In this document: positions 7,280 to 40,497 of the stretch, in pieces
Numbering within the stretch: position 1 is the first letter of the stretch
How the letters are laid out: each line of letters begins with the position of its first letter
DNA from: a bacterium
Lineage (GTDB): Bacteria > Auribacterota > UBA3054 > JAAYZF01
Length of the DNA stretch: 44,324 bases
NCBI GenBank assembly: GCA_012514975.1
Contig: JAAYZF010000300.1
Location: 1 to 44,324 of the forward strand
Reading direction: 5' to 3'
Made by a program: the position numbers and the translations under genes
The notes under the pieces: model-generated
What the model saw: the letters and a program-made list of their open reading frames with translations, nothing else
Databases searched by the model: none
What the model was told of the DNA's origin: nothing

Positions 7280-8515
7280 TCATCCGCCCACGACGTCCAT
7301 CGCGATGCGCGCCCATTCCGTCAGGCGCCGCGGCTCGTAGCGCACGGTGCTGATGTCCTTGAGAATCAGTTCGAGCGGGCAGCCGTTCCTGTCGCAGACG
7401 TTCCTCGTGGTCTCGAGATCTTTGCGCACGAGCCCGGGGTCGAACGTGTCCGTCGCGACGAGCGCCGGGCTTGGCTTGCGCGAATAGACGTACTGCCGGC
7501 CTATCTCCGCCGCGCCGCGCTCCTCGTTCACCCAGGGGCTCATCGAGACATTGCGCACGTTCGGTATCATGCGCACTTCGTTCATCTTGCCGTCAAGCGG
7601 GTCGCAGCATCCGTAGTACACGAGGCCGAACCGCTCGCAAATGCGGCCGGCATACTCGACCTCGAACTCCTTGAACATCCGCGGCGAGACGGTGGAGAAC
7701 ATCTGCGCGAGGCCGAACATCCAGATGTCCTTCGTGCGCGGCCTGGCCGGGTCGTAGCCCGGCGCGGGCAGCTCATCGGTGTAGGCGCCGGTGCAATGAA
7801 TGAGCGACTGCGGGCCGCACAACAGGCCCTGTTCCTCGAGCTGGTCGAGCATGCCGAGGTAGCCATCCGTCATCCGGCCGACAAGGCGGTGCATGAATGC
7901 GGGCCGGTCGATCAGCGCGTACAGCGCGTTCTCAACGCCCATCCACATGCTGATCGGGTCCCACAGCGAAAGATAGCAGTCCGCTCCCCACGGACGCACA
8001 TCGAGCATGCCGTCGAACAGCTCGTGCGCAACGGCCAGGCGGCGTTCGGTTTCGGCCGCATCGTGGCGTATGCGCGGCGAATGGACTTTGCCGAGATCGT
8101 CGTCCGTCTGGAACTGATTGATGAAGAGGTGGCCGACGACGCTGTTCGCGGGGTCAGTAACCGCGGTGCGTTCCTGCACGCGGACGCCGAACCCGGTGTT
8201 GAGGATCGCCTTGGGCACGCGGATGAACGGTTCGACCACCATGTCCACCCGGAAATGCGTCCACTGGAACAACACGCGGCGAAGCTGCTCCTCGTAGCCG
8301 CGGCACTCAGCGTCCGTGCACTGCAGCGTCAGCTCGCCGCCCGTATTCATCTCGTTCCAGCACACCTGGTCGATCATCACCATGGGCCGCGCGGGTGTGA
8401 GGGCGTTGAGCTTGCGCCACAGCGCGCGCTTCTCTTCCTGCACAGGCAGCGCGGCGATCTCCGCCGCACGCGCCGCCAGGCCCCGGATGACTGCGACATC
8501 GTCTTTGTTCAGCAT
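7280..8515 (-). CDS. uroporphyrinogen-decarboxylase-like (URO-D/methyltransferase family) protein
   Basis: A 411-residue cytosolic TIM-barrel protein of the URO-D superfamily. It belongs to the subgroup annotated as URO-D or corrinoid methyltransferase that is abundant in Lentisphaerae and related anaerobes. Diagnostic segments are VYYGCCDPLDGK (putative metal-thiolate site) followed by IPNVRNVSMSPW, and the C-terminal YVYSRKPSPA. Classical haem-pathway HemE motifs are absent, so haem synthesis is unlikely. A methyl-transfer role is inferred from the family, with no corrinoid protein nearby. It is the first gene of a pair with the SGNH protein and has its own promoter at 8573-8545. The start ATG at 8515 lacks a strong Shine-Dalgarno. 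Confidence 0.82.
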   Translation of the reverse strand: MLNKDDVAVIRGLAARAAEIAALPVQEEKRALWRKLNALTPARPMVMIDQVCWNEMNTGGELTLQCTDAECRGYEEQLRRVLFQWTHFRVDMVVEPFIRVPKAILNTGFGVRVQERTAVTDPANSVVGHLFINQFQTDDDLGKVHSPRIRHDAAETERRLAVAHELFDGMLDVRPWGADCYLSLWDPISMWMGVENALYALIDRPAFMHRLVGRMTDGYLGMLDQLEEQGLLCGPQSLIHCTGAYTDELPAPGYDPARPRTKDIWMFGLAQMFSTVSPRMFKEFEVEYAGRICERFGLVYYGCCDPLDGKMNEVRMIPNVRNVSMSPWVNEERGAAEIGRQYVYSRKPSPALVATDTFDPGLVRKDLETTRNVCDRNGCPLELILKDISTVRYEPRRLTEWARIAMDVVGG

Positions 8516-8544
8516 AAACGGTTCCCCATGGGATTGCCGCTGCC

Positions 8545-8573
8545 ACTATAGCAAACACATGTGGAAAAGGCAA
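8545..8573 (-). promoter_or_regulatory. promoter of the URO-D-like/SGNH operon
   Basis: On the minus strand TTGCCT (8573-8568), 17 bp, then TGcTATAGT with the hexamer at 8550-8545. Transcription would start about 20 nt before the ATG at 8515. Confidence 0.6.
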
Positions 8574-8669
8574 CACGGCGTGCGTTCCGCCTGCCGTTCC
8601 GTGCGCAACAGGTGAGCATGGGCGGCACGTGCGTGGGGCGCTGTCACCGGTGAAACACGCCAGGCATCC

Positions 8670-9443
8670 TCACAGGTTCACCACGCCCCTGCAGCCGGGA
8701 TAGGCTGAGCAGCCCCAGAACTGCTTGCCGGCGTTCTGCCCGGTCTTCACCGTGCGCAGCACCATGGCACTGCCGCAGCGCGGGCACTGCGGGGTGACAT
8801 CCGACTGATCCGACTGATCCGACTGATCTGTCTGATCGTTTCGTTTTCGTTTCCGTTGCCTCTCGGCAAGGCGGGCGGTGGCGAGTTGCTCGGTGTAGCC
8901 GCCTTCTTCGACGAACCGCGCCTCTGCCGCGGCAATCTGTTGATCCAGCAGGAAGTTTGCCTGGTGGATCAGGCAGATCAGCGCGTTCGCGCGCACGGCA
9001 GGGTCGTCGCTCTCCAGCCAGGGCGCGTACAGCGCCCATCGCTCCCGATCCGTCAGATCAGTCAGATCGGACTGATCAGCCCGATCTTTCTTGTAGTTCT
9101 GCGGCACGTTGCGCACGGCTCGCGCCTCGGGACTGTCAGGCGCCCATTGCGGCAGGCGCCGCTGACGCAGGAAATCCTCGCAGTCAAGCAGCAGTTCTTC
9201 AAGGCTTGCGCGGGCAACATTGAGCAAGCGCAGTTCAGTCTGCGATGACGTGGCAGCCGCGCGGCTGCCTTCCGCGTTGTTCTGGCGGCCGGAACGGGCG
9301 GCCTGCACCATCTGGTCCGTCATGCGGGATCGCGGGTCAAGAAACCGTTCGCAGAACCAGTACGTGCCATCGTAGATGATGGTTGACGTCTGGAAGCTCG
9401 CGGTCGCGCGGTATCCGCCGCTATGGCGGAGTTTGGTGGCCAT
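8670..9443 (-). CDS. four-helix-bundle suffix protein with C-terminal topoisomerase-type zinc finger (copy 2)
   Basis: A 257-residue protein. Residues about 11-95 resemble the S23/Avd-like four-helix bundle (ARSGRQNNAEGS; LNVARASLEELLLDCEDFL). Residues about 134-200 are the helical suffix domain (ERWALYAPWLE; RANALICLIHQANFLLDQQI). Residues 220-257 form a topoisomerase-I C4 zinc finger with Cys220, Cys223, Cys245 and Cys251 (CPRCGS; GKQFWGC). Both interdomain linkers are made of Asp/Gln/Ser repeats (DQSDLTDLTD; DQTDQSDQSDQSD) encoded by 9-bp GATC repeats. The start at 9443 is fixed by GGAGGAGATC just upstream. It is a tandem paralog of the gene at 9580-10305. Nucleic-acid binding is likely from the zinc finger; the biological role is unknown. 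Confidence 0.85.
   Translation of the reverse strand: MATKLRHSGGYRATASFQTSTIIYDGTYWFCERFLDPRSRMTDQMVQAARSGRQNNAEGSRAAATSSQTELRLLNVARASLEELLLDCEDFLRQRRLPQWAPDSPEARAVRNVPQNYKKDRADQSDLTDLTDRERWALYAPWLESDDPAVRANALICLIHQANFLLDQQIAAAEARFVEEGGYTEQLATARLAERQRKRKRNDQTDQSDQSDQSDVTPQCPRCGSAMVLRTVKTGQNAGKQFWGCSAYPGCRGVVNL
8801..8837. repeat. GATC array, 9-bp period, inside copy 2 (linker before the zinc finger)
   Basis: GATC occurs at 8807, 8816, 8825 and 8834, exactly 9 bp apart, within CCGACTGAT units. Read on the minus strand it encodes Ser/Thr-Asp-Gln triplets. Confidence 0.95.
9047..9086. repeat. GATC array, 9-bp period, inside copy 2 (linker before the suffix domain)
   Basis: GATC occurs at 9047, 9056, 9065, 9074 and 9083, exactly 9 bp apart. 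The five spacers differ in sequence while the tetramer is kept. It encodes the DQSDLTDLTDRE linker. Confidence 0.95.
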
Positions 9444-9470
9444 GATCTCCTCCTTGTCGTCGATGTTGTC

Positions 9471-9542
9471 CGACCGATCGGACCGATCCGACCGATCCGA
9501 CTGATCTGACGGATCCGGCTGACCGGTCTGATCTGACTGATA
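9471..9542. repeat. GATC array, 9-bp period, in the spacer between the two paralogs
   Basis: GATC occurs at 9476, 9485, 9494, 9503, 9512 and 9530, with degenerate GACC at 9521 and GATA at 9539, all on one 9-bp register. This eight-unit block lies just upstream of the copy 2 Shine-Dalgarno (about 9445-9455). Confidence 0.95.
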
Positions 9543-9579
9543 TGTGTGGCCCGGTATCGCCACCGGGCACGGAGAGTGC

Positions 9580-10305
9580 TCACAGGTTCACCACGCCGCG
9601 GCAATCCGGGTAGCCCGTGCAGCCCCAGAATTGTTTGCCGGCGTTCTGCCCGGTCTTCACCGTGCGCAGCACCATGTCCTTGCCGCATCGCGGGCACGCG
9701 GGGATCTGATCAGACGAATCCGACTGACCTGTCCGATCGGTCTGATTGTTTCTCTGTTGCCGATCGGCGAAGCCGTTCCCGGCGAGGCGCGCATCAGCTT
9801 CCGCAATCTGCTGGTCCAGCAGGAAGTGTGCCTGATGGATCAGGCAGATGAGCGCGTTCGCGCGCACAGCGGGGTCCTTGTGCTCGAGCCAGGGCGCGTA
9901 GAGCGCCCACCGCTCCTGATCAGGCAGATTCGACTGATCCGACCGGTCTTTTCTGCCGTTTTTGGACGCGTCATGCACGGCTCTTGCCTCAGCGCTGCCG
10001 GCCGCCCATTGGGGCAGACGGCGGTGGCGGAGGAAATCCTCGAAGTCCAACTGCAGCTCCTCGAGCCGTGCGCGGCCGGCCTTGAGGATGCGCAGATCGA
10101 CCTTCGAGGGCGCCACCATTGCGCGGATGCCTTCAGCGCTTTTCTGGCGGCCGTAGCGCGCAGCCTGGATCATCTCATCGGCCATGCGCGATCGCGGCTC
10201 GAGGCACTGTTCGCAGAACCAGTACGTGCCGTCGTAGATGATCGTGGCAACCTGGAAGGTGGCGGTAGTGCGGAAGCCGCCGTTGGGGATGGGGGGCGTG
10301 CTCAT
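9580..10305 (-). CDS. four-helix-bundle suffix protein with C-terminal topoisomerase-type zinc finger (copy 1)
   Basis: A 241-residue protein, the upstream member of the tandem pair. The order of domains is as in the downstream copy: four-helix bundle at about 11-95 (IIYDGTYWFCE, identical in both), suffix domain at about 130-175 (ERWALYAPWLE; ALICLIHQAHFLLDQQI), and a C4 zinc finger with Cys204, Cys207, Cys229 and Cys235. Its linkers are shorter and more degenerate versions of the Asp-Gln-Ser repeats (RSDQSNLPDQ; NNQTDRTGQSDSSDQ). The start at 10305 is preceded by AGGAG. Longer upstream in-frame readings pass through the repeat array and are rejected. The duplicates share repeat positions but not repeat lengths. 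Confidence 0.85.
   Translation of the reverse strand: MSTPPIPNGGFRTTATFQVATIIYDGTYWFCEQCLEPRSRMADEMIQAARYGRQKSAEGIRAMVAPSKVDLRILKAGRARLEELQLDFEDFLRHRRLPQWAAGSAEARAVHDASKNGRKDRSDQSNLPDQERWALYAPWLEHKDPAVRANALICLIHQAHFLLDQQIAEADARLAGNGFADRQQRNNQTDRTGQSDSSDQIPACPRCGKDMVLRTVKTGQNAGKQFWGCTGYPDCRGVVNL
9703..9747. repeat. degenerate GATC array inside copy 1 (linker before the zinc finger)
   Basis: GATC or one-base variants occur at 9708, 9717, 9726, 9735 and 9744 on a 9-bp register, plus an extra GATC at 9703. This is the same position in the gene as 8801-8837 in the paralog. Confidence 0.85.
9918..9948. repeat. degenerate GATC array inside copy 1 (linker before the suffix domain)
   Basis: GATC, GATT, GATC and GGTC occur at 9918, 9927, 9936 and 9945, 9 bp apart. 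This is homologous in position to 9047-9086. Confidence 0.85.
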
Positions 10306-10329
10306 CGTGTTTCTCCTGTCAGTTAAGGT

Positions 10330-10369
10330 GATCCGACTGATCCGACTGATCCGGCTGATCGGACTGATC
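10330..10369. repeat. GATC array, 9-bp period, upstream of copy 1
   Basis: GATC occurs at 10330, 10339, 10348, 10357 and 10366, exactly 9 bp apart, about 25 bp upstream of the copy 1 start. The rest of the 368-bp gap (10306-10673) holds the pgmB promoter at 10550-10578 and no gene I can support. Confidence 0.95.
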
Positions 10370-10549
10370 GGGTTAAGAGTTGCGCAGCAACGCGTGGGCG
10401 TCTTGTGCACCGGCATCGTGCTGCACCAGCCTTTCGCGCCGCTCGCGCGAGGCCTTGCTCCGCAAAGAGCAGCGTTCACGATGGTATACGCGAAAGCGCC
10501 GCGTCTCTTGCAGAGGAACGCGGGAGGGGCTGAATGGTGCGTGGGTTCA

Positions 10550-10578
10550 TTGACACCGCCTGCGCGGTACGGTATAAT
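10550..10578 (+). promoter_or_regulatory. consensus sigma70 promoter of pgmB
   Basis: TTGACA (10550-10555), 17 bp, TATAAT (10573-10578): a perfect match to consensus in both hexamers and spacing. The leader to the pgmB ATG at 10674 would be about 90 nt. It probably also drives the two genes downstream of pgmB. Confidence 0.8.
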
Positions 10579-10673
10579 CTGCATGGCCAGGCTGCTGTGG
10601 GCCCCGGCGCGCGCATGCCGCGCTGCGGCCCGCCTTGGCTGACGAGACCCGACAACCATTAGATGACCATGCC

Positions 10674-11333
10674 ATGGCGGAACTGAAGGCGGTATTGTTC
10701 GACTTGGACGGTGTCCTTGTCGATTCCCACAGACTGCACTACCGGAGCTGGCAGCAGCTTGCCGACGAGTTGGGCCTCCATTTCAACGAGCAGCTCGGAG
10801 ACCGCTACCGCGGCATGGAGCGCTACGAGTGCATGCGCATCATGTTCGAGGAGTTCAACCACAGGCCGGCGCCGGATCGGCGGACCATTCACGAGCTTAC
10901 CGAGCGCAAGAACGCGTACTACCAGAAACTGCTTGAACACGCCGGGCCTGAAGACCTTGTCCTTCCCGGCTCGGTCGAGTTGCTCGAGGCGCTGCGTGCG
11001 GCGCAGATCACGGCGGTTGTTGCCTCGGGCAGCAAGAACGCACACCAGGTGATCGACCATGCGGGAATCCGCGGCTATCTCGACGCCGTGGTCGACCGCT
11101 ATGACGTGGCCGAGACGAAGCCCGACCCGGCGATCTTCCGCGTGGCGCTCGACAAGGCGGGCGTGCCGGCCGCACACGCCGTCGGCGTCGAGGACGCCGT
11201 CCTTGGCGTCGAGTCGCTTCACCGCGCAGGCATCAAGGCCATTGGCGTCGGCCACTACGTCAAGGACGCCGACCTCGTCGTGGACGCCATCAGGCATCTG
11301 ACGGTCGGGATGATGCGCCGCGTCCTCGAATAG
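10674..11333 (+). CDS. pgmB: beta-phosphoglucomutase-like HAD phosphatase/mutase
   Basis: A 219-residue HAD-superfamily enzyme matching beta-phosphoglucomutase, which interconverts beta-glucose 1-phosphate and glucose 6-phosphate in maltose or trehalose phosphorolysis. Motif I is FDLDGVLVDS with nucleophile Asp10 and acid/base Asp12, motif II is Ser118 in VASGSKNA, motif III is Lys149 in ETKPDP, and motif IV is Glu173-Asp174 in GVEDAVLG. These are the counterparts of Ser114, Lys145, Glu169 and Asp170 of the lactococcal enzyme. A broader sugar-phosphatase function is possible since no glycoside phosphorylase is in the window. The ATG at 10674 begins right at the HAD core; an in-frame start at 10635 would add 13 unmatched residues. 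No clear Shine-Dalgarno is seen. Confidence 0.85.
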   Translation: MAELKAVLFDLDGVLVDSHRLHYRSWQQLADELGLHFNEQLGDRYRGMERYECMRIMFEEFNHRPAPDRRTIHELTERKNAYYQKLLEHAGPEDLVLPGSVELLEALRAAQITAVVASGSKNAHQVIDHAGIRGYLDAVVDRYDVAETKPDPAIFRVALDKAGVPAAHAVGVEDAVLGVESLHRAGIKAIGVGHYVKDADLVVDAIRHLTVGMMRRVLE

Positions 11334-27351: not shown

Positions 27352-27425
27352 GCCGTTCCATCATCCCACCATTCCACCATCCCACCATTCCATCATTCCA
27401 TCATTCCATTGTCCCATTGCCCCCT
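27352..27425. repeat. CATTCCAT-type short tandem repeats between cbiN and cbiQ
   Basis: About seven imperfect units of CATTCCA / CATCCCAC follow one another. They fill much of the 171-bp gap that splits the otherwise compact cbiMNQO cluster. No gene or cobalamin-riboswitch-like sequence is visible in the gap. Confidence 0.75.
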
Positions 27426-40369: not shown

Positions 40370-40377
40370 AGGGGCAC

Positions 40378-40490
40378 TTGATGACTTGATGATGTGATGA
40401 CTTGATGACTTGATGATCTATGATTTCAGACTGAACACTGAACACTGAACACTATCAGTTCACCGATTACCGATCACCGATTACCGATCT
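40378..40490. repeat. three successive short-repeat families between acd and etfB
   Basis: TGATGACT-type units (40380-40418) are followed by three copies of CTGAACA (40430-40452) and then by CCGATTA / CCGATCA units (about 40461-40488). The block fills the 128-bp gap between two genes of a functional unit. No promoter or hairpin is obvious in it. Confidence 0.85.
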
Positions 40491-40497
40491 CCGGTCG

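Follow-up and report, generated by a model that had tools for sequence, protein, structure and literature searches.

Within a bacterial DNA stretch of 44,324 nucleotides (the window), two paralogous genes carry the tetramer GATC at a spacing of exactly 9 bp, both inside their coding sequences and in the DNA beside them. What maintains such a pattern across coding and non-coding DNA was the question raised by this locus. All six period-9 arrays that had been predicted were present (Table 1), and each paralogue, also as predicted, had an array 5' of its start and two more inside, preceding the suffix helix and the zinc ribbon, respectively. A search for GATC-N5-GATC-N5-GATC with at most one mismatch found 18 matches in the window where 0.24 would be expected by chance, and 16 of these 18 lay within 8798-10369. 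The two degenerate blocks (9708-9747 and 9918-9948) contained tetramers such as AATC, GACC and GATT.

When the 25 units of the window were compared, G at position 6 and C at position 8 were invariant, position 7 was usually A or T, and almost no constraint was visible at positions 5 and 9. The original prediction had singled out GATC as the conserved element, to be given up if the remaining five positions proved to be conserved as well as the tetramer. GATC is indeed kept, but it is not the sole conserved part, as two of the other five positions (G6 and C8) are equally conserved. Read in register, the consensus GATC-N-G-W-C-N is identical to its reverse complement. There was no array 3' of gene 1 at this locus, where palindromic arrays take the place of inverted arms. 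The window also contains more intergenic tandem arrays, with a period of 7-8, at 248-319, 27356-27409 and 40376-40493. Their units are AATGTCA, TTCCATCA and ACTTGATG/ACCGATT, respectively, and no four-helix-bundle gene is nearby; the last array lies between acyl-CoA-dehydrogenase-like and electron-transfer-flavoprotein-like genes (named by eye).

Table 1. Genes, domains and period-9 arrays of the locus, in window coordinates.
Feature	Position	Strand	Basis or remark
Gene 1: four-helix-bundle protein with fourth-helix suffix and C4 zinc ribbon of Top1 type	8670-9443	-	257 aa, ATG at 9443
Gene 2: diverged paralogue of gene 1, suffix part shortened	9580-10305	-	241 aa, ATG at 10305
Gene 1, helices 1-3 of four-helix bundle	9162-9401	-	AlphaFold model: H15-34, H40-62, H67-94
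Gene 1, TIGR04258 'suffix' (long fourth helix)	8829-9002	-	Profile and AlphaFold model (H148-180, H183-205)
Gene 1, C4 zinc ribbon, Top1 type	8676-8795	-	Pfam profile match
GATCNGWCN array 5' of gene 2, 4 units and final GATC	10330-10369		Sequence
GATCNGWCN array, degenerate, gene 2 linker between helices 3 and 4	9918-9948		Sequence
GATCNGWCN array, degenerate, linker before gene 2 zinc ribbon	9708-9747		Sequence
GATCNGWCN array of 7 units between the two genes	9476-9542		Sequence
GATCNGWCN array, gene 1 linker between helices 3 and 4	9047-9086		Sequence and AlphaFold model
GATCNGWCN array, linker before gene 1 zinc ribbon	8807-8837		Sequence and AlphaFold model

In profile searches, gene 1 matched TIGR04258 (68.6 bits, cut-off 40), Zn_ribbon_Top1 (35.1 bits, cut-off 32) and TIGR02436 (26.3 bits, cut-off 24); its match to PF05635 (22 bits, cut-off 33.8) covered profile positions 27-72 only. 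Gene 2 matched Zn_ribbon_Top1 (38 bits) and, under the cut-off of 40, TIGR04258 (30.2 bits), with neither PF05635 nor TIGR02436 among the matches listed. At usable scores, Pfam gave only four-helix-bundle and zinc-ribbon matches, and no Y1 HUH transposase was encoded by the window genes. The protein has no known catalytic domain. A Foldseek search against the PDB matched S23 and Avd structures (Avd: 8ub7) with weak E-values. In the AlphaFold model of the gene 1 product (pLDDT 85), helix H67-94 is followed by a poorly ordered stretch holding the first in-gene array, and then by helix 148-180; given this order of the modelled helices (H15-34, H40-62, H67-94, then 148-180), the TIGR04258 suffix would be the source of the fourth helix. 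The array of the helix 3-helix 4 linker falls on a low-confidence loop at about residues 118-131, and that of the linker before the zinc ribbon on residues 206-214, which are disordered (pLDDT below 50). The arrays within gene 1 are predicted by the model to encode surface loops. Gene 2 forms a very long branch beside gene 1 in the tree and has lost several family-conserved residues and part of the suffix. It is possibly decaying, though its frame is still open.

Whether the arrays are constrained as DNA or as protein was examined in relatives of this locus. Among 245 in-gene units from related loci in ten-odd phyla, position 5, which is the second codon position in the main frame, was A in 26, C in 31, G in 23 and T in 20 percent (0.02 bit). 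Position 6 was G in 94% and position 8 was C in 98%; in these unit profile counts, the information at positions 1-4 is inflated by the search pattern and positions 5-9 are unaffected. As position 5 is random, the constraint lies on the DNA and not on the protein, and 111 units from non-coding flanks had the same profile. A pattern-independent count took 30 zinc-finger genes and identified the repeat from its peptide, D-x-[ST]-D-x-[ST]-D. Asp codons, with GAT given first, were used in a ratio of 150:46 within the repeats thus defined and 164:204 outside (p 2e-13). The middle codon of the repeats had the form C-N-G, its second base being free, and AGY serine codons numbered 0 of 148 within the repeats versus 238 of 880 elsewhere. 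This codon bias indicates that the protein sequence of the linkers is a by-product of the DNA pattern, in agreement with the prediction of selection or spread at the DNA level rather than at that of the protein. Within these genes, constraint on the DNA thus takes precedence over constraint on the protein.

As causes, protein binding, adenine methylation and a spreading repeat had been named. The first and the last remain in keeping with our results; methylation has become superfluous. A Dam-type methylation or mismatch-repair signal would account for the tetramer of the arrays being GATC. However, no clear Dam-like methylase was found in the genome, the one weak D12 match lying inside an 880-aa frame. 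The unit pattern also exceeds GATC, including G6, W7 and C8, and sister clades hold GTC-GAC or ATAGG units, that is, arrays without GATC, in the same linker. We regard this explanation as scarcely credible.

A scan of bacterial genomes revealed at least 556 relatives, of which 80, from more than 10 phyla, were retrieved. The relatives carry arrays in the same linker, with the unit types GATCNGWCN, GTCNGACNN, ATAGGNCCT, CACGGACNNN and GTGGACNNN. The first three are palindromic; with CACGGACNNN and GTGGACNNN, the array is followed by its own inverted copy in the loci that were read closely (C92, C219 and C238). On a suffix-family tree built without the linkers, the unit type required 18 changes versus 40.8 with shuffled labels, none of 200 shuffles being as low, and the hosts were mixed across phyla. 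The unit type (GATC, GTC-GAC, ATAGG or CACGGAC) tracks the protein tree and not the host. Similarity between linker and flank within a locus was mildly enriched (25.9% versus 11.8% at a score of 24), an enrichment due in part to the sharing of unit types by different loci.

Self-complementary arrays also accompany the plain relatives of these genes. The window's own genome contains 14 PF05635 matches, and at these loci the gene stands between two short arrays that face opposite ways and whose unit is peculiar to the locus, as in (ATTGCCG)n ... (CGGCAAT)n. Of 94 PF05635 loci in the phylum, 59 had upstream and downstream flanks that matched each other as reverse complements (score 36 or more), and about a third were without clear inverted arms. 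As controls, direct matches were seen at 6 of the 94 loci, and 472 mismatched pairs gave 1.5%. The corresponding values in other phyla were 14 of 28, 3 of 28 and 0.13%. Inverted arrays were also present on named cyanobacterial plasmids, such as (TAGGGAG)n ... (CTCCCTA)n in Nostoc edaphicum. Away from four-helix-bundle genes, 0 of 15 arrays had an inverted partner. Most arms had a period of 7 or 8. The cassettes, with a median span of 522 bp, were intergenic between protein genes at the loci examined. One locus (L104:650-780) has a complete inverted array pair (a hairpin) on its upstream side and a third array downstream. On cyanobacterial plasmids, four-helix-bundle genes were found inside CRISPR-Cas operons (L275, L277 and L280), where they separate cas10/cmr2 from cmr3, or cas6 from cas4. 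Rather than belonging to the CRISPR system, they may have inserted there, a point that matters for screens based on association.

The inverted arms raised the possibility of an element acting as RNA, in which the arrays form a transcript stem cut by RNase III and base pairing is selected. The protein family is that of the S23p elements of 23S rRNA, the inverted termini surround an ORF as in the RNase III-cut intervening sequence of Coxiella (PMC4990558), and 36 of 57 cassettes had both neighbours on the same strand as the gene. However, G-U pairs on the sense strand of the arms (136) were not in excess of A-C mismatches (139), so that selection on an RNA stem is unsupported. Such cutting would also affect the in-frame arrays of coding linkers, and some cassettes, including that of Nostoc edaphicum, are antisense to their neighbours. 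No rRNA was seen among the flanking genes at the loci examined; window positions 8400-10700 gave no rRNA match, and Rfam gave nothing real. The parity of G-U and A-C favours a process at the DNA level, for example DNA recognition or the use of one arm as the template for the other, and RNA structures may still form. We consider selection on RNA pairing rather unlikely.

Similarity between the units of arms rose with protein identity, in the same orientation only: an arm score of at least 22 was reached by 35% of pairs at 60% or more protein identity versus 0.7% of those below 30%. One and the same intergenic slot was occupied across species by related cassettes with drifted units or by unrelated cassettes with unrelated units (for example, L014/L084/L089). 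At L103, a 512-bp cassette was absent in four relatives, which had 0-12 bp instead, and L104 likewise had an empty counterpart in relatives. At these two loci, array, gene and inverted array were gained or lost as one piece.

These results bear on whether the arrays are host regulatory sites, the protein being a regulator and the arrays near genes its operators. Solo arrays of the GATC pattern were intergenic on five other contigs, as operators might be; in Geobacter metallireducens, tandem octamers that occur in pairs on opposite strands have been called sites of a global regulator (PMC2700814). On the other hand, the units vary from cassette to cassette within a single genome and, at one and the same slot, from species to species, cassettes come and go as a unit, and arrays occur within the linkers of the gene itself. 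A role as operators is in our judgement distinctly unlikely.

Array load was compared in stretches sampled without regard to four-helix-bundle genes. The 17 genomes that lack PF05635 yielded 4 arrays of period 6-9 over 354 kb, and the 14 that have it yielded 52 over 530 kb. This approximately ninefold difference (Spearman 0.71, p 9e-6, kinship ignored) comes from small samples of related genomes, includes exceptions (G031 and G014) and sister cases that differ both ways, and is used here as supporting evidence only. A long solo array with no adjoining four-helix-bundle gene (L022:3264-3385) changes its unit midway from GATCAGTGA to GATCAGCCG, and a cluster of direct heptamer arrays spanning 1.1 kb without an inverted partner (L044:12507-13624) drifts stepwise through GTTAGTG, GTTCATC, CATCGTC and CGTACAT. 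Polymerase slippage on short inverted repeats, acting neutrally and independently of the protein, would fit the fast turnover of arrays, and slippage is among the earlier proposals for heptamer repeats, as cited in PMC4692102. It leaves unexplained that inverted copies are confined to four-helix-bundle genes, that units track the protein tree across phyla, and that positions 1-4, 6 and 8 are fixed beside random positions 5 and 9. We find slippage alone very unlikely.

Our observations, then, comprise the association of arrays with genes, self-complementarity, constraint at the DNA level, the match between unit and protein lineage, presence or absence as a unit, and the correlation with array load. 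We think it likely that the GATC arrays are a lineage-specific form of self-complementary arrays that travel and evolve together with four-helix-bundle genes of the S23p/IVP/Avd fold, whose products probably bind and drive them. Weighing against this reading are the lack of a known catalytic domain in the protein, the missing reverse transcriptase in the 76%-complete genome, the third of PF05635 loci without clear inverted arms, and the predominance of solo arrays in the genome. The simple cassette would consist, in about 0.5 kb placed between other genes, of an array, the four-helix-bundle gene and the same array inverted. In the suffix form, represented by the window, arrays would additionally be accommodated in frame, in the loop between helices 3 and 4 and before the zinc ribbon; a period of 9 would preserve the reading frame, and palindromic units would make arrays at all positions equivalent on both strands. 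The four-helix-bundle protein probably recognizes its own arrays, binding its unit as DNA in the form of an oligomeric ring that reads a repeated short motif. PF05635 proteins of solved structure are pentameric rings, among them the Xanthomonas S23p cited in PMC4990558, and such rings would suit the binding of repeated short motifs. The zinc ribbon may add a DNA contact in the window genes, and binding would drive copying, concerted turnover and movement with the help of host enzymes. A broader proposal, which we put forward only tentatively, is that these genes represent a widespread bacterial class of mobile cassettes without transposase, in which an oligomeric four-helix-bundle protein recognizes its own short unit and causes it to be copied at both ends, in its own linkers and at other sites, and that this class is the source of the unexplained 6-9-bp arrays in many bacterial genomes.

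Several known systems resemble the arrangement described here. REPtrons consist of RAYT (TnpA-REP) genes with a Y1/HUH transposase domain, flanked by inverted REP sequences that form single hairpins. The cassettes share with them the inverted-repeat flanks, the dispersal of related solo repeats and the tie between repeat type and protein lineage, but have no Y1/HUH domain, and they differ in their short tandem units, in a unit that changes from locus to locus and in their in-gene arrays. Short tandem repeats (STRR) and heptameric SSR arrays have been described in Nostoc and Xanthomonas (PMC4692102) and in Beggiatoaceae (PMC4679880), where a hypothetical repeat-binding protein was suggested as the mobile element, and surveyed in 7006 genomes (PMC6344855). 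No intergenic tandem repeats are commoner in prokaryotes than heptamer and related arrays, for whose function that survey gives 'no clear clue'. They resemble our arrays in their period of 6-9, dispersal, mostly intergenic location and fast-changing units, the in-gene arrays here being an exception. Those repeats, however, were described alone, whereas the arrays here are tied to four-helix-bundle genes. In our search of open-access journal papers, none was found that links the two, and the arrangement is widespread and apparently undescribed. 'Four helix bundle protein / S23 ribosomal protein', a common annotation without a function, would become a candidate partner of the unexplained repeats of 7-9 bases.

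Avd of diversity-generating retroelements has a fold homologous to PF05635 (PMC10053308), but no pair of template and variable repeats was seen here, and the window genome (76% complete) contained no PF00078 reverse transcriptase. A counterpart in architecture is the intervening sequence (IVS) of 23S rRNA that encodes S23p/IVP, for example in Coxiella burnetii (PMC4990558), a small ORF of the same four-helix-bundle family within terminal inverted repeats. An S23p-type ORF bordered by complementary termini is what we found at 59 of 94 PF05635 loci, and our cassettes would also share the sporadic, selfish character attributed to IVS elements. S23p elements with inverted ends are thus already known in rRNA, but the rRNA location does not hold here: an IVS lies inside an rRNA gene and its ends form one stem, whereas the cassettes lie between protein genes and end in tandem arrays of 6-10-bp units. 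Unlike the IVS, they give no sign of selection on an RNA stem, and the suffix genes carry arrays within their coding sequence. The finding may illuminate the origin of both Avd and the intervening sequences of 23S rRNA.
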